Assembly (NCBI RefSeq): GCF_021483235.1
Contig: NZ_JAKEEC010000018.1
Span: forward strand, 1-64,000
Length of the DNA: 64,000 nucleotides
Direction: 5' to 3'
Source: Arthrobacter alkaliphilus
GTDB lineage: Bacteria; Actinomycetota; Actinomycetes; Actinomycetales; Micrococcaceae
The notes under the pieces are model-generated. The model worked only from the letters and a program-made list of their open reading frames with translations. It was not told where the DNA came from and searched no databases. This document shows, piece by piece, positions 18,127 to 29,519 of the stretch (its first letter is position 1; each line of letters begins with the position of its first letter). A program made the translations under genes and the position numbers.

Positions 18127-19254
18127 ATGAACGCAACCCCGAAGACCGTCCTCATCGCGCCCGACAAGTTCAAAGGCAGCCTTACCGCCGCCGAGGTAGC
18201 GGACGCGGTGGCGGCAGGGATCTGTTCCGTCGGAGCAGTTCACTGTGAACTGCTCCCACTAGCGGACGGAGGTGACGGCAGCGTCGACGCCGCCGTCGCC
18301 TCCGGCTTCGCCCGCCACGCTTTGGCGGTCCCGGGACCGACCGGACAGGCCGCGCTAGCGAGCATCGCGTTCGACGGCGTCACTGCTGTTGTGGAGGTGG
18401 CGAACACTTGCGGTTTGGGGCTGTTGCCGGACGGGCGGCTGGCGCCGCTGGATGCGTCGAGCCGCGGCTTTGGCGAGGCTGTTCTCTTTGCCCTGGCGTT
18501 GCGGCCGGCGCGGATCGTGCTGGCTCTTGGCGGGAGCGCCAGCACCGACGGAGGAATGGGCATGCTCACGGCCCTGGGCTTCCGGTTCCTCGACGCCTCC
18601 GGGCGATCCTTGGAGGGAAACGGGCGGAATCTTGGCCTTATCCACACTGTTCTCGGGTCTCCTTTCCCCGGGCTGGACGATACTGAACTGATTGTCGCGA
18701 GCGATGTGCACAACCCGCTCTGCGGGCGGGACGGTGCGCCTGCGGTGTTTGGTCCGCAGAAGGGCGCTTCGGCCCAGGATGTTTCAGCGCTCGACGCCGG
18801 TCTGGCGCACTTTGTCTCCATCCTCGGTTCCAGCGGTTTCGGGGAGGCGGCAGCTCTGGCCGAGTACCCCGGCGCTGGCAGCGCGGGCGGGGTCGGCTTC
18901 GCGTGCCTGTTGCTGGGCGCTTCTCAGGTCTCCGGGGCGGACTACTTTTTGGATCTCCTCGACTTCGACGCCCGGAAGGAAGTATGCGAGCTGGTGGTAA
19001 CCGGCGAGGGCAGCATCGACGAGCAGACCCTGGCTGGAAAGCTGCCAGCCGCCGTCGCGCGCCGCTCGGGCACCCGGCCGATCATCGCCGTCGCGGGCCG
19101 TTCGTTGCTGCCCCGCGAGCGCTGGTCCGAAATGTCGCTCTCGGGGGTTTATGCGCTGGCGGATTACACGGATCTGGATTCGTCGAAGGATCCTGGGTTG
19201 TCGGCGGAGCTGTTGAGGCGGATCGGGCGGGATATTGGAGAGGGACTGGTGTGA
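18127..19254 (+). CDS. Glycerate kinase (tartrate-operon copy)
   Basis: A 375-residue member of the GarK/GlxK glycerate kinase family, which phosphorylates D-glycerate to 2-phosphoglycerate with ATP. It opens [19 protein letters not shown] and contains LADGGDGSVDAAV, LALGGSASTDGGMGML, FGPQKGASAQDV and VVTGEGSIDEQTL, all family blocks. The ATG at 18127 follows the carrier stop by one base, so it is translationally coupled. A paralogue lies in the glyoxylate cluster at 28296. This copy uses more TTG/CTG leucine and GCG codons in places but is otherwise similar in composition. The product would feed the glycerate made from tartrate into glycolysis. Confidence 0.92.
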   Translation: MNATPKTVLIAPDKFKGSLTAAEVADAVAAGICSVGAVHCELLPLADGGDGSVDAAVASGFARHALAVPGPTGQAALASIAFDGVTAVVEVANTCGLGLLPDGRLAPLDASSRGFGEAVLFALALRPARIVLALGGSASTDGGMGMLTALGFRFLDASGRSLEGNGRNLGLIHTVLGSPFPGLDDTELIVASDVHNPLCGRDGAPAVFGPQKGASAQDVSALDAGLAHFVSILGSSGFGEAAALAEYPGAGSAGGVGFACLLLGASQVSGADYFLDLLDFDARKEVCELVVTGEGSIDEQTLAGKLPAAVARRSGTRPIIAVAGRSLLPRERWSEMSLSGVYALADYTDLDSSKDPGLSAELLRRIGRDIGEGLV

Positions 19255-19375
19255 GCGTCGTCGCTCTCGCCCGGCAACCCTCTGCGCGATATATTCGAGG
19301 TGGATCTCGACCTGAGCTACACGACCTTCCGACGGGTAACACCGCCAGCACAAAGCCTGAACGAAGGAGCATCCC

Positions 19376-20272
19376 ATGACTGACGCGAAACCGGTCCTCG
19401 TCGTCGGCGCCACCGGCCAGGTGGGCGGCAAAGTGGTCGACGAACTGCTCGCAAGGGGGAAGAGCGTCCGGGCCTTGGTCCGGCCAAGCTCGGATGCCGG
19501 CAAGCTCGAGGGAAAAGGTGTCGAGATTGCCCGCGGCGACATGCTGGACGTTAATTCCCTCATCTCCGCGATGACGGGGGCCGACGCCGTGATCAGCTCT
19601 GCCGCCGGGTATACCCGCCGCGACAAGCAGGCTTTGGAGATCGACACCGAGGGCAACACCAACCTCGCCATCGCCGCGCACCGGGCCGGCGTCCGGCGGT
19701 TTGTCCTGGTCAGCATCCTCACCGCCGACCAGACGCCGGATGTCCCGCACTTCTGGCACAAGAAGCTCACCGAGGACAAGCTGGAGGCACTTGAGGTTCC
19801 ATTTGTCGCCCTCCGGCCCGGCGCGTTCCTCGACCAGGTCACCCGGATGGGTGGCGACCCGTTCGAGAAGAAGCGCCTCACATGGTTCGGGACCAAGACA
19901 ATCCCGCTGACCTTCGTCCTCACCTCTGACCTCGCCGGATACCTCGCGGCAGCGGTCGATGCGGATGTCGCCAACGGCGAACGTATCGACATCGGCTGGG
20001 ACCGCCCGGTGAGCATGCAGGACATCGCGGACATCGCTTCGACTTTTGCCGGCGGACCTGTCAGTGTGCGGTCGGTCCCTGCCTGGTTTGTCAACGGGCT
20101 AGGCGCGGTGATGGGACCGTTCGTCCCGATGGTCAAGGACATGAGCTCCATGCTCGGCTGGTTCGAGACGGGCAAATACGTCGCGGACACCACGCGCCAA
20201 GCGGAAGTCTTCGGGCCAGTCCCGACGCCGGAAGACGCCGTCGCGCGCTTCGCCCGCAGTTTGGGGCACTAA
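19376..20272 (+). CDS. NAD(P)-binding atypical SDR (NmrA-like)
   Basis: A 298-residue Rossmann protein. The dinucleotide motif GATGQVGG is at 11-18, followed by LVRPSSDAGKLEG, where an Arg after strand 2 suggests NADP(H). There is no YxxxK catalytic pair in the canonical place, which fits the atypical SDR/NmrA-type subfamily that senses redox state or reduces quinones. The C-terminal half holds the substrate lobe and ends DAVARFARSLGH. A good ribosome site (GAAGGAG) precedes ATG 19376. It is monocistronic and converges with the lower-GC gene cluster to its right. The substrate is unknown. Confidence 0.8.
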   Translation: MTDAKPVLVVGATGQVGGKVVDELLARGKSVRALVRPSSDAGKLEGKGVEIARGDMLDVNSLISAMTGADAVISSAAGYTRRDKQALEIDTEGNTNLAIAAHRAGVRRFVLVSILTADQTPDVPHFWHKKLTEDKLEALEVPFVALRPGAFLDQVTRMGGDPFEKKRLTWFGTKTIPLTFVLTSDLAGYLAAAVDADVANGERIDIGWDRPVSMQDIADIASTFAGGPVSVRSVPAWFVNGLGAVMGPFVPMVKDMSSMLGWFETGKYVADTTRQAEVFGPVPTPEDAVARFARSLGH

Positions 20273-20296
20273 GGTCGCGAAAGTCGGACGGCGCAG

Positions 20297-20833
20297 TCAG
20301 TCCTCCGGAACCACGGTCTGCCCCGGGCGAACAAGGTAAGCCTCTAGACCTGGGGCACTCAGCACCGCAGCGACGGCGGCGACCGAACCTCCAACGAAAA
20401 CAGATCTCGCGTAGATGTCGTTCCCGACAAACCAGGCGGCATCGTCCGGTATCCAGTTCATGGCAAGTCGGGTCGGCGGAAAATCGATCGGTTTGAGAGC
20501 AAGCTCAATGCTTCCATTCCTGACATGCATGACCCTCTGCTCGCCAATGGTGATGGTTGGACTCTCGCGTACCTCCTCCAGCAGAGAGTCGTAGCCTTCC
20601 CAGGACAAGAAAGTGAAAGCGGAAGATTGAGTGTGCTCGGCCAAGACTGCGGACAGCCGAAGAGCAACTGAGCTCTCAATGGTGCCTGTCTCCGGTTCGT
20701 AGTATTCGTTCGGATCAGGGTTGGCTGTCGAAACGATCTCACTCCACTGGGTTTCGCTGTCGACGGTCATCGAGCTGCCCGCAATGACCGACCATCGCAG
20801 ACGTCGGCCTTTGGAGGTCCTCACCGGATTCAT
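20297..20833 (-). CDS. Hypothetical protein, possibly 5'-truncated
   Basis: A 178-residue product if the first usable ATG (20833) is used. Blocks such as FLSWEGYDSLL, WIPDDAAWFVGNDIYARSVFVGGS and a C-terminal LEAYLVRPGQ resemble an uncharacterised actinobacterial family of about 200 residues. Conserved-looking sequence (VPHSFPAFARVMNPV) already appears upstream of that ATG, in a frame that stays open but overlaps the end of the ABC permease gene. I see no ATG, GTG or TTG between the permease stop (20890) and 20833. Either the true start lies inside the permease gene or the 5' end was lost at the edge of the transporter cluster. Function unknown. Confidence 0.5.
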   Translation of the reverse strand: MNPVRTSKGRRLRWSVIAGSSMTVDSETQWSEIVSTANPDPNEYYEPETGTIESSVALRLSAVLAEHTQSSAFTFLSWEGYDSLLEEVRESPTITIGEQRVMHVRNGSIELALKPIDFPPTRLAMNWIPDDAAWFVGNDIYARSVFVGGSVAAVAAVLSAPGLEAYLVRPGQTVVPED

Positions 20834-20889
20834 AACGCGGGCAAAGGCGGGAAAGCTGTGGGGTACCAGCCCGGCAAGCGCAGCAGAAG

Positions 20890-22104
20890 CTACAGGTCCC
20901 TCAGCGAAGAATCGGCGTCGAGCCGGGCGAGTCTTGCGACGTGCCCAACGGCGCCCAGGCACAGGAACAAGGGCACGCAGAAGAGTGCTCCGAGCACGAG
21001 CAGCCAGTTGGGCATTGCCCACGCGGCCACCGGCAGGAGGTCGAGCTGCAGGCCGCTGAAGACTGCCGTCCCTACGCTGGAGCAAAGTGTCCCCAGGAGC
21101 GCTCCCGTCAGCCCAATGATGAGGCCAACCGCTGCCAACTCGACCATGTAAACCCCTGCTATCGAGGCCCCTGACCAGCCGATGGCCTTGAGGAGACCCA
21201 CCTCGCGGGCTCTTTGCTTAATCCAGCTGCCACCGACCGACACTCCAACACCGAGGCAGAAAATAACGAGGAAGCCGCCGATCAACCAACTGACCAGGGC
21301 AAGAAGAGCAAACAGGCCTGACAGGGACCGAATTTGGCCAGCGACGCTGTTCACGGAATATCCGAGGGCTCGGACCTGGTTTTGCACATTGACCACTTCG
21401 TCTGCTGAGTCAGCGCGAACAAATGCGCGGGGGTAGGTCAGCGCTTTCGTATTCGGCCGGGCATTGGCGAGCGTTGACTGGACCACCTTACTGGATACGT
21501 AAGCAGCCTGCGCGCCATCGGTACCAGGCGACGAGTTGTCATAGATGCCTGCCACTCGGAGAGACATGGAAACGGGTTCCCCATTACCAGGGCCGATTTC
21601 CCTTGTGTACACAAAGTTCATTTCCTTGCCAAGCAGCTGATCATATTTCTGGCCCTGCCCCTTGTCGGGAAGCAGGATCTGGCCTTCCCCAGGGCCGTCC
21701 GCGGACACTTCTCCCAGCAGTACTTTCGGAGTGATGCCGCTGATGAATGGCGTGCCGATGAATGCACCGGGGTTGTTCGGTGATGGCCAGTTCGCAGGGT
21801 CCTCTATCGCGAGGTCTATTTGTGCCCAACCGGAGGACCCCACCACGTGATCGATTTGGCTGAACCGGGATAATGATTCGTCAGTGATCTCACGAGCTGA
21901 GTCCGGACCTACTGAAGTGACCTCCACATAATTCAGGGCGGAATTGGTGCTGATCTTGTTTGAGTATGAGCTTATTCCGGCCCCTACGATGCTGTCGGCG
22001 AATATGAATACCGCGATGCCAAGACTCATCAGGACCGCGAGTGGCCTCAATTTCGAGAGGGAAAGCCGCACTGACCTGGCAGCAAAGACCCTATTTCTGT
22101 TCAA
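20890..22104 (-). CDS. ABC transporter permease, FtsX/MacB type
   Basis: A 404-residue protein. Its topology is one N-terminal helix (about 25-45), a large extracytoplasmic domain (about 50-255), then three helices at about 260-295, 310-335 and 355-385, the last followed by a short cytosolic tail ending SSLRDL. This is the MacB/LolC/FtsX plan of permeases that do not move substrate through the membrane but drive extracytoplasmic work such as peptide or lipoprotein extrusion. The N-terminus overlaps the ATPase gene by 14 bases. Codon use is less GC-biased than in neighbours (AGA, AAT and TCA codons appear). Partners are the ATPase and the lipoprotein just upstream. Confidence 0.85.
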   Translation of the reverse strand: MNRNRVFAARSVRLSLSKLRPLAVLMSLGIAVFIFADSIVGAGISSYSNKISTNSALNYVEVTSVGPDSAREITDESLSRFSQIDHVVGSSGWAQIDLAIEDPANWPSPNNPGAFIGTPFISGITPKVLLGEVSADGPGEGQILLPDKGQGQKYDQLLGKEMNFVYTREIGPGNGEPVSMSLRVAGIYDNSSPGTDGAQAAYVSSKVVQSTLANARPNTKALTYPRAFVRADSADEVVNVQNQVRALGYSVNSVAGQIRSLSGLFALLALVSWLIGGFLVIFCLGVGVSVGGSWIKQRAREVGLLKAIGWSGASIAGVYMVELAAVGLIIGLTGALLGTLCSSVGTAVFSGLQLDLLPVAAWAMPNWLLVLGALFCVPLFLCLGAVGHVARLARLDADSSLRDL

Positions 22105-22753
22105 GGAGCAACTCCTTCATGGGAAGCTGACGGTGGGCCACCTGCTGGAAGACTTCGTCATGGGAAGCGACCAGGACACCGCACCCGCTGTTGGCGCCCG
22201 TCCTCATGGCGTCCAGGATGACTTCGGTATTTGCCCGGTCAAGACCCGAACTTGGTTCATCCGCCAGTAGTAGTGAAGGCCTGTTGATCAGCGCGCGGCA
22301 AAACGCGACCCGTTGCTGCTGCCCTCCGGAAAGCCTCTTCGCCTGCCGGTCTGCGACCGCGGCCAAGCCGAAGCGTTCCAGCTGCTCTATCATCGCCGCG
22401 CGCGTCGTGGACTCGCGGCTGGCCAGGAGGACGTTTTCCATCGCCGTAAGTTCGGGCAGTAGATTGCTGCTCTGAAACACCATTCCAATCTCTATCGAGC
22501 GGACCAGACTCGCCGTCCGGGGCGATGCGTTGGTTCTGTCGTCACCATCGATCCACACTCTGCCGGTATCGGGGGTTGAGAGGAGTCCGGAGATGTTGAG
22601 GATGGTTGACTTCCCCGAGCCCGACTCACCACGCAGCCAGACGATCTCACCCGCCTCGACATTCATGCTGACGCCGGGAAGGACCAATTGTCGGTTCCCG
22701 CGCTCGTCTGCAAAAGACTTGGTGATGTTCTCAAGGCGCAGTACCGAGGTCAC
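22091..22753 (-). CDS. ABC transporter ATPase, LolD/MacB type
   Basis: A 220-residue nucleotide-binding subunit. Walker A GESGSGKST is at 42-50, the Q-loop FQSSNLLP at 93-100, the signature LSGGQQQR at 141-148 and Walker B LLLADEPSSG at 161-170. It is the short MacB/LolD class that pairs with FtsX-type permeases, here the next gene. It starts at GTG and shares one base with the TAG stop of the lipoprotein gene, so translation is coupled. Together with the permease, the lipoprotein and the small upstream ORFs it looks like one functional export or immunity module. Confidence 0.92.
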   Translation of the reverse strand: MTSVLRLENITKSFADERGNRQLVLPGVSMNVEAGEIVWLRGESGSGKSTILNISGLLSTPDTGRVWIDGDDRTNASPRTASLVRSIEIGMVFQSSNLLPELTAMENVLLASRESTTRAAMIEQLERFGLAAVADRQAKRLSGGQQQRVAFCRALINRPSLLLADEPSSGLDRANTEVILDAMRTGANSGCGVLVASHDEVFQQVAHRQLPMKELLLEQK

Positions 22754-23658
22754 TAGTTCACCCCGAAGTCGTATGCACCGGGGACCGCGATCATTGCGGC
22801 TGAAACCGAGAGGCTACACGGCGACTCCTTGCCTGCTTCCAGCCGATACAAGGAGGGGAATTCCTTGCAGCCTCTCAGTGTCCGGAGTCCCTCGGCCGCC
22901 TTGTCGAAGTCGTTTGATCCAAGTCCGGAGCGGCTTGCGTTCGTCATGGCGGTCAGCGCCCGAAAATAGTTCATGCCGTTTCCATTCGGTGAACTGACGA
23001 GTTGCGGGAGCGCGGACTGCACGGCCGGAAACATTGATCTCACTTCTTCGCTGTTTGAGAAGTACATGGAGTTGGAGAGCGCCATCAGCGCTCCGGAGAG
23101 CAGGTCGTCAACTCCGGGGTCTGCTTCGAACGCCGCCAGCCGCGCCAAGGGGGCATTGGGCTCGAGCTGCACCAGGACCTCCACCAGGTCGATATACCCG
23201 CTGAGATTGGCGATTGTCACGTCTGTCGGAAGCGCTGTCTTTCCCCGCTCGATCACCGGACCGTAGCTCACCCATGACGAGGAACCAGACCGCTTGAGGG
23301 CCACAAGCGCCTTGAGCTGAGTGATGAGATTGGTTTCGGGCTCCCGCAGGACCAGTTCCAGTTCGTCCAGGGTCTGTTCGTTTGCGAGCTCTGAAAATCT
23401 GGTGTCGAGGAGCCTCACGGCAAGATACGTCCCATGGACCGAGCCCGTTTCGGGGGAGGCTGACTCGGGCATCCTTACGAGGCCGTTGATTCCGCGCAGC
23501 TTCGTCAGATCTTCTTTCACGGCGGAGACATCGTTGGCCGTGAGGCCGGGACCTGCATGGCAAGCGGTCAAGCCAAGCAGAGCCAGCCCCAGGGTGGAAA
23601 GACGCCTTGCGTTTCGTAGCCAGTGGCTCCGACCTCCGCGCCCGAGATCATTGGACAC
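22753..23658 (-). CDS. Lipoprotein encoded with the ABC transporter
   Basis: A 301-residue protein if started at GTG 23658, which has AAGGTGA five bases upstream; a GTG 33 bases earlier is possible. The signal peptide LSTLGLALLGLTAC ends in a lipobox with Cys33, so the mature protein is lipid-anchored outside the membrane. The rest is mostly helical: TKLRGINGLVRMP, a Glu/Leu-rich helix near 85-105, and a C-terminus with two Cys (GCKEF and SPCSLS) that could form a disulfide. I do not recognise a family. Its tight coupling to the ATPase suggests it is a substrate-handling, immunity or sensor component of the transporter. Confidence 0.75.
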   Translation of the reverse strand: MSNDLGRGGRSHWLRNARRLSTLGLALLGLTACHAGPGLTANDVSAVKEDLTKLRGINGLVRMPESASPETGSVHGTYLAVRLLDTRFSELANEQTLDELELVLREPETNLITQLKALVALKRSGSSSWVSYGPVIERGKTALPTDVTIANLSGYIDLVEVLVQLEPNAPLARLAAFEADPGVDDLLSGALMALSNSMYFSNSEEVRSMFPAVQSALPQLVSSPNGNGMNYFRALTAMTNASRSGLGSNDFDKAAEGLRTLRGCKEFPSLYRLEAGKESPCSLSVSAAMIAVPGAYDFGVN

Positions 23659-23663
23659 CCAAT

Positions 23664-23885
23664 TCACCTTTTCTGACGGGACCGGAGCCACCGGCTTGTA
23701 ACGTCAGATAGGGCTACGAGGCCAAGCGATAGGGCAAAAGCCAGGGCGATCGTAAGTGCCTCCCGAACTGAATTTCGGCCAGTCCACCAACTGTTGTTCA
23801 CAAGCATCAGAATGATCGTCAAGAGCCCAGCCCTTCCGAAGCGTGACATCCACACCTTTTCGCTTGGACCATTCGAGCTGTCCAT
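23664..23885 (-). CDS. Small two-helix membrane protein
   Basis: A 73-residue protein with two hydrophobic segments (LLTIILMLVNNSW and LTIALAFALSLGLVAL) and a basic C-terminal tail (SRWLRSRQKR). The ATG at 23885 has AGAGG about seven bases upstream, with an in-frame stop just before it, so the start is well fixed. Its end is 6 bases from the chosen lipoprotein start, and it overlaps the alternative one. No family is recognised. Small proteins of this type often act as immunity or accessory subunits in bacteriocin or peptide-export operons. That is inference from context only. Confidence 0.55.
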   Translation of the reverse strand: MDSSNGPSEKVWMSRFGRAGLLTIILMLVNNSWWTGRNSVREALTIALAFALSLGLVALSDVTSRWLRSRQKR

Positions 23886-23942
23886 CCATTACCTCTTCGG
23901 ACCAAGTTGAAGCGAGCAGGGGAATCCACCCAAAGGTGGACA

Positions 23943-24185
23943 TTAGGGTTCGCCCTCTGCAAGGCGATAGGCCGCCAAGGCGTCTCGGCGGGCCCAGGTG
24001 ACAGCAAGGGCAACGTCGAGGGCGAGAACAACGCAAAAGAAGGCAACAAAGATGGGAAATGGCGCGCCAGCGGCAAAGAGGGCGACCACGATGACGATGA
24101 ACAGGACGCAACTGATCCAGTTGTACCGACGCCGGCCCGGAGTCGCTCGTCGAGCCGCCTGAAGTTCAGACAGGTAGTAGAGCAT
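23943..24185 (-). CDS. Small two-helix membrane protein
   Basis: An 80-residue protein. A cytosolic basic start (LYYLSELQAARRATPGRRRY) leads into two adjacent helices (WISCVLFIVIVVALFAAG and PIFVAFFCVVLALDVALAVT) and an acidic end. The ATG at 24185 lies inside the end of the 34-codon ORF that precedes it, so the two could be translationally coupled. Its TAA overlaps an ATG that opens a further 79-codon frame (23943 to 23704), which I do not accept as a gene. No family is recognised. It belongs to the lower-GC transporter cluster. Confidence 0.55.
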   Translation of the reverse strand: MLYYLSELQAARRATPGRRRYNWISCVLFIVIVVALFAAGAPFPIFVAFFCVVLALDVALAVTWARRDALAAYRLAEGEP

Positions 24186-24270
24186 TTTGATCCGCTATCT
24201 CGGCGATGCCAACCGCGAAGGCCGACGTTCCAGCAAGGCCTTTTCGAACAAGCGATACGCGCTTTTCCAT
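24166..24270 (-). CDS. Possible 34-residue peptide at the head of the ABC cluster
   Basis: ATG at 24270 has a GGGGGG tract five bases upstream and opens 34 codons to TGA at 24166-24168. The product starts MEKRVSLVRKGLAGTSAFAV and ends ADQNALLPV: a basic start, a small-residue hydrophobic core and a polar end, like a short precursor or leader peptide. It is the first ORF of the minus-strand run of two small membrane proteins, lipoprotein, ATPase and permease, and its end overlaps the next start by 20 bases. It could be an exported peptide handled by the transporter, a regulatory leader, or chance. No family is recognised. Confidence 0.4.
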   Translation of the reverse strand: MEKRVSLVRKGLAGTSAFAVGIAEIADQNALLPV

Positions 24271-24404
24271 GAATCCCCCCAGTGTCTTCCGTTGTTCGGA
24301 TCCGAGTTCGGAACCGGTACAGGAACCCTAAGGGCGAAAATCGCGTCTCAGTGTTGAAAACGACGAATTAAGTGGTGCCCTCGACCAATCTCAGTGGTCA
24401 AACG

Positions 24405-24443
24405 TGGCAACACGTAGATGGCAACCTGGCAACACGTAGATGG
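24405..24443. repeat. 17-bp perfect direct repeat, 22-bp period
   Basis: TGGCAACACGTAGATGG occurs at 24405-24421 and again at 24427-24443. The pair lies in the 357-base gap (24271-24627) between the minus-strand transporter cluster and the plus-strand hyi gene. Two turns of spacing on one helix face suggests a regulator site. The same gap also holds the IclR-type boxes. Confidence 0.6.
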
Positions 24444-24543
24444 AAACGCAACTCCTCCTTATGCTCAGGCCAACCCCGATTCACCCTCGCTACCTCCACC
24501 CCTCCGAACGCCCCTTGACTCCCACCCCTACCTTCCCTAAACT

Positions 24544-24579
24544 TTTCATAAAGCAGAATCTAAATTCCACAAAGCGGAA
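24544..24579 (+). promoter_or_regulatory. Tandem IclR-type operator boxes before hyi
   Basis: TTCCACAAAGCGGAA at 24565-24579 matches the partly palindromic TTCC-n7-GGAA pattern bound by IclR-family regulators of glyoxylate and allantoin genes. A second copy, TTTCATAAAGCAGAA, lies at 24544-24558, 21 bases earlier. They end 48 bases before the hyi start. No IclR-family gene is in the window. Confidence 0.5.
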
Positions 24580-24627
24580 ACGCCTAGGAAGATAGATCCC
24601 AAGCCCTCCCCCGGAAGGACACCTACG

Positions 24628-25428
24628 ATGACGTACACAGTGAACTGCTCCATCCTCCTGACGGAGCTGCCCCTGCTCGAGCGCCCTGCAGCCGCGAAGG
24701 CTGCCGGTTTTGACGCCGTCGAATTCTGGTGGCCCTTTGAGACTTCCGTACCGTCGGACGCTCAGGTAAGCGAGTTCGAGAACGCCATCAAGGACGCGGG
24801 CGTTCAGCTCACCGGCCTGAACTTCAACGCCGGCAACATGCCCGGCGGCGACCGCGGCCTGGTCTCCTGGCCGGCCCGCTCTTCCGAGTTCCAAGACAAC
24901 ATCGACGTTGTCTCAGGAATCGGCGAGCGCCTCGGCTGCAAGGCGTTCAACGCCCTCTACGGCAACCGTGTGGACGGCGAATCAGCTGAGAACCAGGACG
25001 CCATCGGCGCTGAAAACCTTGCGACGGCGGCAGCCGGGGTGGCGCGCATCGGCGGCACCGTCCTCCTCGAGCCTGTCAGCGGCGCACCCAAGTACCCGCT
25101 CCTCACGGCAGAAGACGCACTCAGGGTCATCGCCCGCGTCAAGGAAGAAACCGGCGTCGACAACGTCAAACTCCTCGCCGACTTCTACCACCTGGCGGTG
25201 AACGGGGACGACGTCGAAGCCGTCATCGAGAACCACGCCAAGGACTTCGGCCACATCCAGATCGCCGACAACCCCGGCCGCGGCGCCCCCGGTACCGGCA
25301 CGCTTCCCCTCGGCGAATGGATCGCCCGCAGCCGCGAACTCGGCTACGAAGGCTACATCGGCCTCGAGTACAAGGAACCGCAGGAAACCGCCTTCAGCTG
25401 GGCCATCCGCGAACGCGCCGCCCGCTAA
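24628..25428 (+). CDS. hyi: Hydroxypyruvate isomerase
   Basis: A 266-residue TIM-barrel enzyme interconverting hydroxypyruvate and tartronate semialdehyde. It opens TYTVNCSILLTELPLLERP and has the typical VEFWWPF strand, LLEPVSGAPKYPL with a metal/catalytic Glu, LLADFYHLAVNGDD, and HIQIADNPGRGAPGTG near the C-terminal active site. It is first in the run hyi-glxR-gcl-kinase-allB, so it belongs to glyoxylate assimilation from allantoin. The ribosome site GGAAGGA precedes the ATG. Two IclR-type boxes lie upstream, so the whole run may be induced by glyoxylate or allantoin. Length and motifs are standard. Confidence 0.93.
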   Translation: MTYTVNCSILLTELPLLERPAAAKAAGFDAVEFWWPFETSVPSDAQVSEFENAIKDAGVQLTGLNFNAGNMPGGDRGLVSWPARSSEFQDNIDVVSGIGERLGCKAFNALYGNRVDGESAENQDAIGAENLATAAAGVARIGGTVLLEPVSGAPKYPLLTAEDALRVIARVKEETGVDNVKLLADFYHLAVNGDDVEAVIENHAKDFGHIQIADNPGRGAPGTGTLPLGEWIARSRELGYEGYIGLEYKEPQETAFSWAIRERAAR

Positions 25429-25491
25429 ACAGCCCGCTAGCCAATTCAGCACACCTGAGCTAAAACACAGACTTTCAGAAAGAGAACCACA

Positions 25492-26370
25492 ATGAGCAAC
25501 GTTGCAGTCATCGGACTCGGAATCATGGGCCTGCCCATGGCCATCAACCTCGTCAAAGCCGGCCACACCGTCACCGGTTTCAACCGCAGCCAGGACAAGA
25601 TCGACAAACTCGTCTCCGAAGGCGGCAAGGGCGCCACGAGCATCGCCGACGCCGTCAAGGACGCCGATGTCGTCATCACCATGGTGCCGGACTCCCCCGA
25701 CGTCGAAGGCGTCGTCAGCGGCGAAGACGGCGTCTTCGCCAACGCGAAGCAGGGCGCGCTCTGGATCGACGCGAGCAGCATCCGCCCGGACGTCGCGGCA
25801 CGCCTCGCGGCAGACGCCAAGGCAGCCGGCATCCGCCCGCTCGACGCCCCGGTTTCCGGCGGTGAGCAGGGCGCGATCGACGCCGTCCTGTCCATCATGG
25901 TCGGCGGCGAGGCAGCAGACTTCGAGGCCGCACAGGACGTCCTCAACGCCGTCGGCAAGACGATCGTCCACGTCGGCCCCTCCGGCTCCGGCCAGACCGT
26001 CAAGGCAGCCAACCAGCTGATCGTCGCGGTCAACATCGAGGTCCTCGGCGAGGCCATCGCCTTCCTTGAGGCCTACGGCGTAGATACCGACGCCGCCCTC
26101 AAGGTGCTCGGCGGCGGCCTGGCCGGGTCCAAGGTCCTCGACCAGAAGGGCCAGAAGATGCTCGACCGCAACTTCGACCCCGGTTTCCGCCTGGCCCTGC
26201 ACCACAAGGACCTCGGCATCGTCACCTCCGCAGCCCGCGAAGCCAACGTGGCCATCCCGCTCGGCGCCGTCGTCGCACAGCTTGTCGCCGCCACTGTCAA
26301 CCAGGGCGACGGCGGACTCGACCACTCGGGACTCTTCAAGCAGGTCCTTCAACTTAGCGGCCGCAAGTAA
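25492..26370 (+). CDS. glxR: 2-hydroxy-3-oxopropionate (tartronate semialdehyde) reductase
   Basis: A 292-residue beta-hydroxyacid dehydrogenase reducing tartronate semialdehyde to D-glycerate with NAD(P)H. The N-terminal Rossmann motif reads [19 protein letters not shown]. The substrate-binding block [11 protein letters not shown] and the catalytic-lysine block GQTVKAANQ are present. A C-terminal helical domain has [15 protein letters not shown]. It lies between hyi and gcl in the same direction, so Gcl product is reduced in the same operon. The ribosome site (AGAAAGAGAA) is modest. Nothing is unusual in length or motif. Confidence 0.93.
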
Positions 26371-28295: not shown

Positions 28296-29519
28296 ATGCG
28301 TGTGGTCATAGCCCCGGACAAGTTCAAGGGATCGCTGTCAGCCCCCGAGGTCGCCAGCCGCTTGAGCGCCGGACTGCGGGCCGGCTTCGCGGCGGGCCAA
28401 GCAGCCAGCCGCCCTGGCGAAGGTTTCGAGGCCACGCTCATTCCAGTGGCCGACGGCGGCGAGGGGACTCTCGACGCCGCTGTCGGCTCCGGCTTCACCC
28501 GCCGGAGCGCCACAGTCACCGGCCCCACGGGCCAGCCGATAACGGCGGAGTTCGCAATCCGCGGCACCGAAGCGGTCATCGAAATGGCCGCGGCCTCCGG
28601 ACTCGCTGTGTTGCCCGGCTTCGGCAACACGGCGCCGAACTCCGAAACGGCCCAGACCTCCACCAGCCTGGGCACCGGCGAACTCATCCGCGCCGCCCTG
28701 GACCTGGGCTGCCGGCACATCATCCTCGGCGTCGGCGGCAGCGCCAACACCGACGGCGGCGCCGGCGTGCTGCAAGGACTGGGTGCGGTCCTCCTTGACG
28801 CGGACGGCAACGAACTCCGTGGCGGGGGCGCGGCCCTGGCCCGCCTGGACCGGATCGACTTCTCCAACTTCGACGTCCGGCTCGAGGCCACCGAGTTCGT
28901 GCTGGCGTCCGACGTCGACAATCCCCTTTTGGGCCGCACCGGCGCCGCCGCGATCTTCGCACCGCAGAAGGGCGCGACGCCGGAGGACGTCGCCACGCTC
29001 GACGCCGCCCTGGCCCGTTTCGTGGACGTCCTCGCCGGAGAGATCGGCCCCGAAGCCCGCGACGCGGCGATCGCTCCGGGCGCAGGTGCGGCAGGCGGAG
29101 TCGGCTACATTGCCATCGCGGCGCTTGGCGCGGCACGCAGGCCGGGCATCGACGTCGTCCTCGAATTCACCGAACTCGAGCAGCGGCTACAGGGCGCGGA
29201 CCTGGTGATCACCGGCGAAGGCAGCCTCGACGAACAAAGCCTGCTCGGCAAGACGCCCATGGGCGTCGCCCGGGCAGCAGCACGTTCCGGGATCCCCGTG
29301 ATAGCGGTCTGCGGCCGCAGCACGCTGGGCCCGGAGCAACTCACGAAATCCGGTTTCGGGTCGGTCCACGCGCTGACCGAACTCGAATCCGATGTAGCGA
29401 AATGTATAGCTGAAGCGGGTCCGCTGCTTGAAGAATTAGGTAGGCACATCGGCGTGCACCTAGCGGAAAAATCCGAATACCCAGCGCGGATCGACACCAA
29501 GGAGGACCTCCATGTCTGA
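28296..29519 (+). CDS. Glycerate kinase (glyoxylate-cluster copy)
   Basis: A 407-residue GarK/GlxK-type kinase making 2-phosphoglycerate from the glycerate formed by GlxR. It opens [19 protein letters not shown] and has [42 protein letters not shown] and [13 protein letters not shown]. It is about 30 residues longer than the tartrate-operon copy at 18127, with extra residues in the first third and at the C-terminus. It sits between gcl and allB, and its last 8 bases overlap the allB start, so the two are translationally coupled. The two kinases look like diverged paralogues, each tied to its own catabolic route. Confidence 0.93.

Follow-up and report, generated by a model that had tools for sequence, protein, structure and literature searches.

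Gene content of the locus

The window analysed here is a stretch of 64,000 nucleotides of Arthrobacter alkaliphilus (contig NZ_JAKEEC010000018.1, positions 1 to 64,000), whose minus strand carries at 20297-24270 a compact run of genes for a MacB/LolD-like ABC transporter, a lipoprotein, two small membrane proteins and a 34-codon open reading frame (ORF). An earlier note on this DNA had proposed that the run may be an undescribed module for peptide export and immunity or for envelope stress, gained by transfer. All genes named in it were recovered in the ORF list with translations, and Pfam confirmed the ATPase and the permease; the 34-codon ORF is a truncated gene and the last ORF looks truncated as well. 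In the direction of transcription the features are:

24271-24401, minus strand: conserved upstream promoter/leader segment, common to related cassettes; 126 of 130 aligned bases equal to those of the relative G301
24166-24270, minus strand: 34-codon ORF, cut-off beginning of a gene for a secreted precursor (toxin-like stub); 20 base pairs (bp) of overlap with TMa
23943-24185, minus strand: TMa, 80-amino-acid membrane protein, putative immunity protein, orphan here; two helices by eye, omega 0.26-0.41
23889-23909, minus strand: SEC182 remnant, final six codons and stop (QLGPKR*), rest deleted; colinear with L064 8279-8299
23664-23885, minus strand: TMb, membrane protein of 73 amino acids, orphan here and putative immunity protein for SEC182; SEC182, whole or in part, upstream in 4 of 7 genomes with a TMb match, omega 0.39-0.60
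22753-23658, minus strand: lipoprotein, short form of 301 amino acids; GTG start, LTAC lipobox by eye
22091-22753, minus strand: ABC ATPase, MacB/LolD-like; PF00005 at 112.7 bits, nucleotide-binding motifs intact by eye
20890-22104, minus strand: FtsX/MacB-type permease; PF02687 at 35.4 bits
20297-20833, minus strand: probable N-terminally truncated remnant of a protein of around 217 amino acids (third scar, at the permease stop); 217-amino-acid homologue in L163

(G and L numbers are our handles for genomes and for stretches of relatives.) Beyond the stub/TMa overlap, gaps of 57 bp and 5 bp separate TMa from TMb and TMb from the lipoprotein, and on basis of the coordinates the lipoprotein and ATPase genes overlap by 1 bp and the ATPase and permease genes by 14 bp. 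The sequence GGGGGG stands just 5' of the ATG of the 34-codon ORF. For membrane helices and signal peptides we relied on inspection by eye together with a hydropathy scan; the scan itself returned one merged or strongest segment in each small membrane protein, the two helices being a by-eye judgement. Genes in relatives were called with a simple in-house caller and tblastn.

Searches of Pfam and NCBIfam at E ≤0.1 gave no match for the 34-amino-acid ORF, the 73-amino-acid ORF, the lipoprotein and the last ORF, and only sub-threshold matches for TMa. No Rfam family was found within 19000-26000 and no tRNA within the window, and the results of promoter and terminator scans were near chance. The lower G+C content (GC) of the run that had been noted before is real but modest: it amounts to 59.2% over 20297-24270 versus 63.8% for the window, and 1.8% of overlapping windows of the same size are equally low. 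Concerning the two patches singled out earlier, 21901-21960 (50% GC) is among the lowest 3.3% of 60-mers and 23701-23760 (58% GC) is ordinary, as 24% of 60-mers are equally low. Five relatives of the lipoprotein were found in the named genome collection, all in Arthrobacter, which points to an Arthrobacter-like genome.

Scars of secreted-protein genes

In the DNA alignment, window positions 24497-24215 correspond to L064 4294-4575 at 83% and positions 24185-23944 to L064 4847-5088 at 78%, and around 240 bp that are present in L064 between both blocks are missing from the window. The deletion is out of frame, and the homology of the 34-codon ORF to the L064 precursor stops near codon 19. Arthrobacter sp. 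Hiyo8 (L002, which covers the same locus as L064) encodes a secreted protein of 100 amino acids, followed by an 80-amino-acid TMa. By these alignments the 34-codon ORF is the truncated start of a larger secreted precursor and no peptide gene, so it does not supply the transporter with a peptide.

The nearest relative, G301 (92% over the stretch), carries the same scar in the form of a 30-codon ORF, with a further loss of 12 bases within the hydrophobic core. Between the window and G301, substitutions were counted at 9 of 73 aligned bases in the stub, 4 of 130 in the promoter segment, 13 of 243 in TMa and 15 of 222 in TMb; the excess within the stub (Fisher, p 0.015 versus promoter, p 0.06 versus TMa and p 0.14 versus TMb) proves neither decay nor constraint. 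Stubs that start from the same ATG and precede an open TMa occur in G436 (55 codons) and G444 (54 codons), both with a 16 bp overlap, and a second stub copy in G301 runs into the open frame of TM119, a membrane protein of 119 amino acids. The upstream segment 24271-24401 lies in the 83% block shared with L064; further copies of it are found in G301 (a second one), L054, L055, L058, L059 and L060. A search with the 34 residues over 295 genomes matched in 38 at E ≤1, mostly inside longer frames and with a best non-self E of 0.01, and these matches were taken as chance.

Remains of a second gene lie in front of TMb. In L064, TMb is preceded by a secreted protein of 182 amino acids (SEC182), and the last six codons and the stop of SEC182 are recognisable at 23909-23889 of the window. 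Upstream of TMb, SEC182 or at least 25 of its residues were found in four of the seven genomes with a TMb match (G365, G300, G436 and G360). A third scar is located at the other end of the run, where window position 20889 aligns to L060 11472 and position 20888 to L060 11206, leaving around 265 bp fewer in the window. The ORF at 20297-20833 is probably an N-terminally truncated remnant, although this pair alone leaves an insertion in L060 possible.

TMa and its precursor within the genus

A joined query of four cassette proteins, with at most eight candidates scored per genome, matched in 36 of 206 genus genomes, and all ten complete precursor tails recovered in this search adjoin TMa. The fetched rows contained 39 copies of TMa, that of the window included and one of them at a contig edge; ten have a complete tail 9-37 bp upstream and 29 do not, a survey that starts from TMa, so that it is not independent and cannot by itself reveal tails without TMa. 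Among the 29 tail-less copies, L108 retains a short trace of the tail, G439 a 27-residue remnant, and four have a start stub (the window, G301, one of two G436 copies and G444). Nothing was recognised before the remaining 23, which include the copy at the contig edge and the one in G300 that lost its own start. These counts bear on the question, raised in the earlier note, of whether a short ORF always precedes these genes. The pairwise omega of TMa (0.26-0.41) indicates moderate constraint.

The tails conform to a conserved type (CIxLAPAPIGAMAFRYTGGYC) in which the C-terminal Cys pattern is conserved. The precursors of L125, L128, L130, L131 and L132 measure around 290-340 amino acids from a plausible start and have, by eye, a signal-peptide-like N-terminus. 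L126 and L127 possess the tail within an open frame that lacks a signal peptide, the precursors of L064 and L124 are internally shortened, and L129 retains only a degenerate end.

Architecture of the precursor family

With the 126-residue tail as query, 18 plasmid records were matched (14 of Streptomyces, 3 of Clavibacter and 1 of Arthrobacter). These matches end at residue 40-82 and cover only the first part of the query, which is the recurring segment around WAxDAxG...YPVVADP that lies before the tail. The five records that were opened, out of the 18, differ among each other in their C-termini. The Clavibacter capsici protein has a DUF4258-like end (E 4.5e-4; the record carries the DUF4258 name), and a DUF2283 gene comes after it; in each of the remaining four a membrane-like ORF of 73-120 amino acids lies within 50 bp downstream, unannotated in two cases. 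In the phylum sample, 5 of 198 genomes showed a match, including the window's own genome, and four of the five were read. The window's own genome encodes, at L159:1816-2775 (G000:C13:6315-7274), a precursor-family protein of 319 amino acids with a DUF2599-like end (E 0.0011), close behind which no small gene was called. Taking the nine read proteins with other C-termini together, a membrane-like ORF (by eye) lies at most 50 bp downstream in five and around 380 bp downstream in one, a DUF2283 gene lies downstream in one, and nothing close was called in two.

Such a shared segment with exchanged C-termini is, as far as the sequences go, the pattern of polymorphic toxins. The relatives display a shared N-terminal part with differing C-terminal parts as well as a dedicated downstream gene (ten out of ten complete tails lie beside TMa); the window itself has no intact toxin gene, its share being around 19 homologous codons and the six-codon tail.

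The transporter operon and SEC160

The Pfam scores of the ATPase (ABC_tran, 112.7 bits) and the permease (FtsX, 35.4 bits) are both above cut-off. The latter score, against a gathering score of 25.5 for PF02687, places the permease in the FtsX-like superfamily; its MacB_PCD score of 23.7 bits is under the cut-off of 27, and among solved sequences YtrF comes nearest (119 residues, E 4.9e-5). The ATPase falls short of the equivalog scores for LolD (TIGR02211, 157 bits versus 307.75) and, taken alone, MacB (NF007826, 127 bits versus 966), as well as of the lactococcin-972 ABC cut-off (TIGR03608, 148.3 bits versus 254.85), and it is also far under the cut-off of TIGR02982. By the curated scores, the ATPase is neither a LolD, a MacB nor a lactococcin-972 ABC protein. 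MacA models of Pfam and NCBIfam had no match among the genes of the run. The earlier note would be refuted by a transporter of a characterised lipoprotein or drug efflux family with no peptide; the scores fall short of the curated cut-offs for lipoprotein release, MacB and lactococcin 972. A match of the ATPase to mad3 of PADLOC was read as general ABC similarity.

A permease search matched in 14 of 206 genus genomes, of which 13 were counted as loci, the match in G282 (27%) being remote and dropped. In nine of the 13 loci a secreted protein of around 154 amino acids (SEC160) is encoded directly upstream of the lipoprotein. SEC160 is absent from the window, G300 and G365, and there the lipoprotein measures around 300 instead of more than 500 amino acids; over all 13 loci the lipoprotein is short in three, long (>500 amino acids) in nine and long with damage in one. 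G301 has both SEC160 and the lipoprotein, at the ends of two contigs. The SEC160 alignment matched in 12 of 206 genus genomes; a remnant in G358 and a weak match in G187 (E 0.0097) were excluded from the loci. SEC160 was not found in 396 phylum genomes, a sample without a known positive, nor on plasmids, and it does not qualify as a plain lactococcin 972 given the lack of any Pfam family at E ≤5. Its structural model consists of strands only and is of low confidence (mean pLDDT 38.7).

The lipoprotein, ATPase and permease genes are open and, by pairwise omega, under clear purifying constraint, a measure that averages the whole divergence, so that a recent loss of function would escape it. With closer relatives the permease gives 0.065-0.093 and the ATPase 0.09-0.16, and with the far relative L065 they give 0.25 and 0.18, respectively; a second ATPase match in L065 (omega 0.63) is not counted in the range, being a paralogue. 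The lipoprotein yields 0.23-0.30. SEC160 yields 0.02-0.08 between undamaged copies with an estimate and 0.26 against a copy in G399 that is internally shortened. No estimate was obtained for SEC160 and the lipoprotein of L063 and L065, nor for the ATPase of L062. The operon is breaking down in some relatives: in G399 a deletion has fused the lipoprotein to the end of the ATPase (L061:6274-7287), and in G365 the permease is split into two frames (L064:10083-11296).

For the lipoprotein no Pfam, NCBIfam or PADLOC family was found, and a search of plasmids gave no match. Its model is helical and of low confidence (mean pLDDT 51, pTM 0.47), and a fold search with it returned nothing at E ≤0.001 (best PrgX, E 0.076). 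The lipoprotein profile matched designed armadillo repeats, of which no stretch passed alone, and we read this as helical-repeat similarity only. That the long form arose by tandem duplication of one domain was rejected, as its halves are unlike (best E 0.067). In a family-level sample of genomes, 2 of 295 matched the lipoprotein, namely the window's own and G147 (21%); the latter was dropped, as its gene has no transporter called next to it in the part displayed.

Of the 13 transporter loci, five have TMa in the same fetched stretch (G301, with TMa on a separate contig, comes in addition) and one has a complete precursor tail, so the transporter is independent of the precursor/TMa pair. In L056 (4685-8395) and L064 (5665-7677) a second ABC set, consisting of an ATPase and membrane proteins, lies between the cassettes and is absent from the window; one of its membrane proteins is ABC-2-like, below cut-off. 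Just downstream of the permease, L054 (11374-11999) and L061 (4370-4995) carry what looks by eye like a VapBC pair, with a PIN-domain-like toxin and an antitoxin-like gene.

The genomic site

The stretch upstream of a TIM-barrel gene (PF01261) holds the run. Among 59 relatives searched, 40 matched a joined query, and the stretch upstream of the TIM gene was read in ten. None of the ten contains the transporter operon, and the first upstream gene differs in each; given these differences the site is variable. Further upstream, at least one gene is common to G382 and G434, and two are common to G472 and G422. A TM119 relative occupies the site in G435 (L154:1382-1660), where no other gene of the system was called. 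The operon is found away from the TIM gene as well: nothing in the fetched stretches of L061, L062, L063 and L065 matched TIM. A test for an empty site by way of NmrA-TIM adjacency was abandoned, considering that in relatives with both genes these are on different contigs or far apart. Two genes that are glycerate-kinase-like by eye (18127-19254 and 28296-29519) flank the island in the same orientation, around 9 kb apart.

Origin and possible role of the run

We consider it fairly probable (around 0.65), on the strength of the comparisons above, that the run is the remnant of a site for secreted toxin-like proteins and their partner genes that became joined to a resident transporter operon, with TMa and TMb as orphan immunity genes. 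The alignments show two secreted-protein genes reduced to a start stub of 34 codons and a tail of six codons, with TMa and TMb open downstream. The lost proteins were probably antibacterial toxins that left the cell by the Sec route and acted on the membrane of close relatives; TMa and TMb would sit in the membrane and block them, and the strain would thus resist toxins that it no longer makes. The least certain step concerns the transporter and the surface lipoprotein, which might clear secreted toxins or handle a secreted protein at the envelope; their role in self-protection is the weaker proposal, and SEC160, the usual neighbour of the transporter, is missing in the window. Of the peptide and immunity module that the earlier note had put forward, the association of the small membrane proteins with secreted toxin-like proteins (in relatives) and the variable site stand; the 34-codon ORF as exported peptide does not, as it corresponds to a precursor start.

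Several observations weigh against this reading. Retention of TMa is variable, since some relatives lost it as well: the start of TMa is gone in G300, in G443 the stub leads into what is left at the end of a deleted TMa, and the stubs of G344 and G419 lead into a broken TM119. TMa is also frequently solitary, which could mean another function, and for TMb the omega of 0.39-0.60 speaks only weakly for constraint. Neither the DUF4258 nor the DUF2599 match reaches the Pfam cut-off. Finally, SEC160 is too conserved to look like a diversifying toxin, which argues for a stable partner, and the transporter may therefore have nothing to do with toxins.

This last point leads to the alternative that we take most seriously, although we hold it at somewhat less than even odds: the lipoprotein, ATPase and permease may belong with SEC160 in a system for envelope maintenance or for secreted proteins that has no relation to the cassettes, which would only have landed at the same variable site. 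The position of SEC160 directly upstream of the long lipoprotein in nine of 13 loci (with SEC160 itself shortened and damaged in G399), its rank as the most conserved gene of the set, the four loci with the operon away from the TIM gene and the varied genes found at that site in ten relatives without the operon all agree with this. Against it, the lipoprotein is short in the window, L056 and L064 and comes after TMb or a different ABC set there, which suggests an exchange of partners. That the whole island is dead or dying DNA is rather improbable. The three scars in the window, the broken permease in G365, the broken lipoprotein and ATPase in G399 and the broken TMa or TM119 in G443, G300, G344 and G419 would fit, but the transporter genes are open with omega 0.065-0.30, and TMa shows constraint as well.

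As to the 34-codon ORF, its strong ribosome site and overlap with TMa could suggest a small peptide (a bacteriocin or signal) for which the MacB-type transporter is the exporter and the membrane proteins provide immunity, and MacB-like transporters do serve peptides in some known systems. We regard this as highly improbable, considering that the ORF matches only the start of a larger precursor, its remainder following from an out-of-frame deletion, that the hydrophobic core in G301 is 12 bases shorter, and that of the 13 transporter loci five have TMa in the same stretch and one a complete tail. The stub might instead be kept as a leader ORF whose only use is translational coupling to TMa; with the deletion, the ribosome site of TMa itself looks weak. 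In the window and in G301 the frame is open and ends inside TMa, and the stubs of G444 and G436 overlap TMa too, yet the substitution excess, as said, speaks for neither decay nor constraint. A leader of this kind seems unlikely, and it is compatible with the remnant toxin site that we favour.

More broadly, and more doubtfully, the genus may possess a system with a core of SEC160, surface lipoprotein and MacB-type transporter, beside which there is exchange of two-helix membrane immunity proteins and of polymorphic toxins that form a new family and are secreted by Sec; many strains, that of the window among them, would keep only the immunity half as an inherited shield. No description of it was found in the literature on Arthrobacter bacteriocins and immunity, polymorphic toxins, lactococcin 972/MacB and DUF4258/DUF2283, as covered by titles and the starts of abstracts, with subscription journals under-represented. 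Neither the precursor and its tail nor TMa, TMb, SEC160 or the lipoprotein reaches the cut-off of any curated family. If true, soil actinobacteria would offer, across a whole genus, toxin-like secreted precursors with matching membrane partners that can be tested and lie outside the curated families searched, and the complete pair, the stub with partner and the partner alone would form a natural series for asking why immunity outlives the weapon. It would also serve as a warning that a short ORF with a good ribosome site beside a transporter can be a deletion scar.

Comparison with known systems

The operon resembles the MacB, YtrF and LolCDE exporters in its combination of an ATPase with an FtsX-type permease that has a MacB-like extracellular domain (sub-threshold). 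It differs from these in scoring below the LolD, DevA and MacB cut-offs, in the missing MacA match and in its partner, a helical lipoprotein (low-confidence model) of no known family. Lactococcin_972 is the name of the lactococcin 972 bacteriocin family. Its loci resemble those of the relatives in having a small Sec-type secreted protein (in the relatives SEC160, strand-rich in its low-confidence model) beside a MacB-like ABC transporter; unlike in these loci, SEC160 has no Pfam family at E ≤5, the ATPase is below TIGR03608, an extra lipoprotein is present, and SEC160 is missing in the window.

TsaI, of the TspA/TsaI pair, is a membrane protein. The Arthrobacter precursors differ from type VII toxins in that no LXG domain was detected by Pfam in the three precursors scanned, type VII genes not having been searched for, and in their starts, which are Sec-type by eye. 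According to the accessible parts of the reports on the membrane-depolarising type VII toxins TspA/TsaI (PMC7456083, PMC9484751) and EsxX (PMC12744356), a membrane-acting toxin is neutralised by an immunity protein, and the Arthrobacter pairs may function alike.

The closest parallel in organisation is with the polymorphic toxin systems, which, as far as the accessible text of PMC3482391 goes, share with the cassettes a common secreted N-terminal part, an exchangeable C-terminus and a small gene directly downstream; DUF4258 and DUF2599 are not mentioned in that accessible text. Unlike known polymorphic toxins, the pre-toxin segment, the tail and TMa belong to no Pfam or NCBIfam family above cut-off, and in the window the toxin-like parts are gone.

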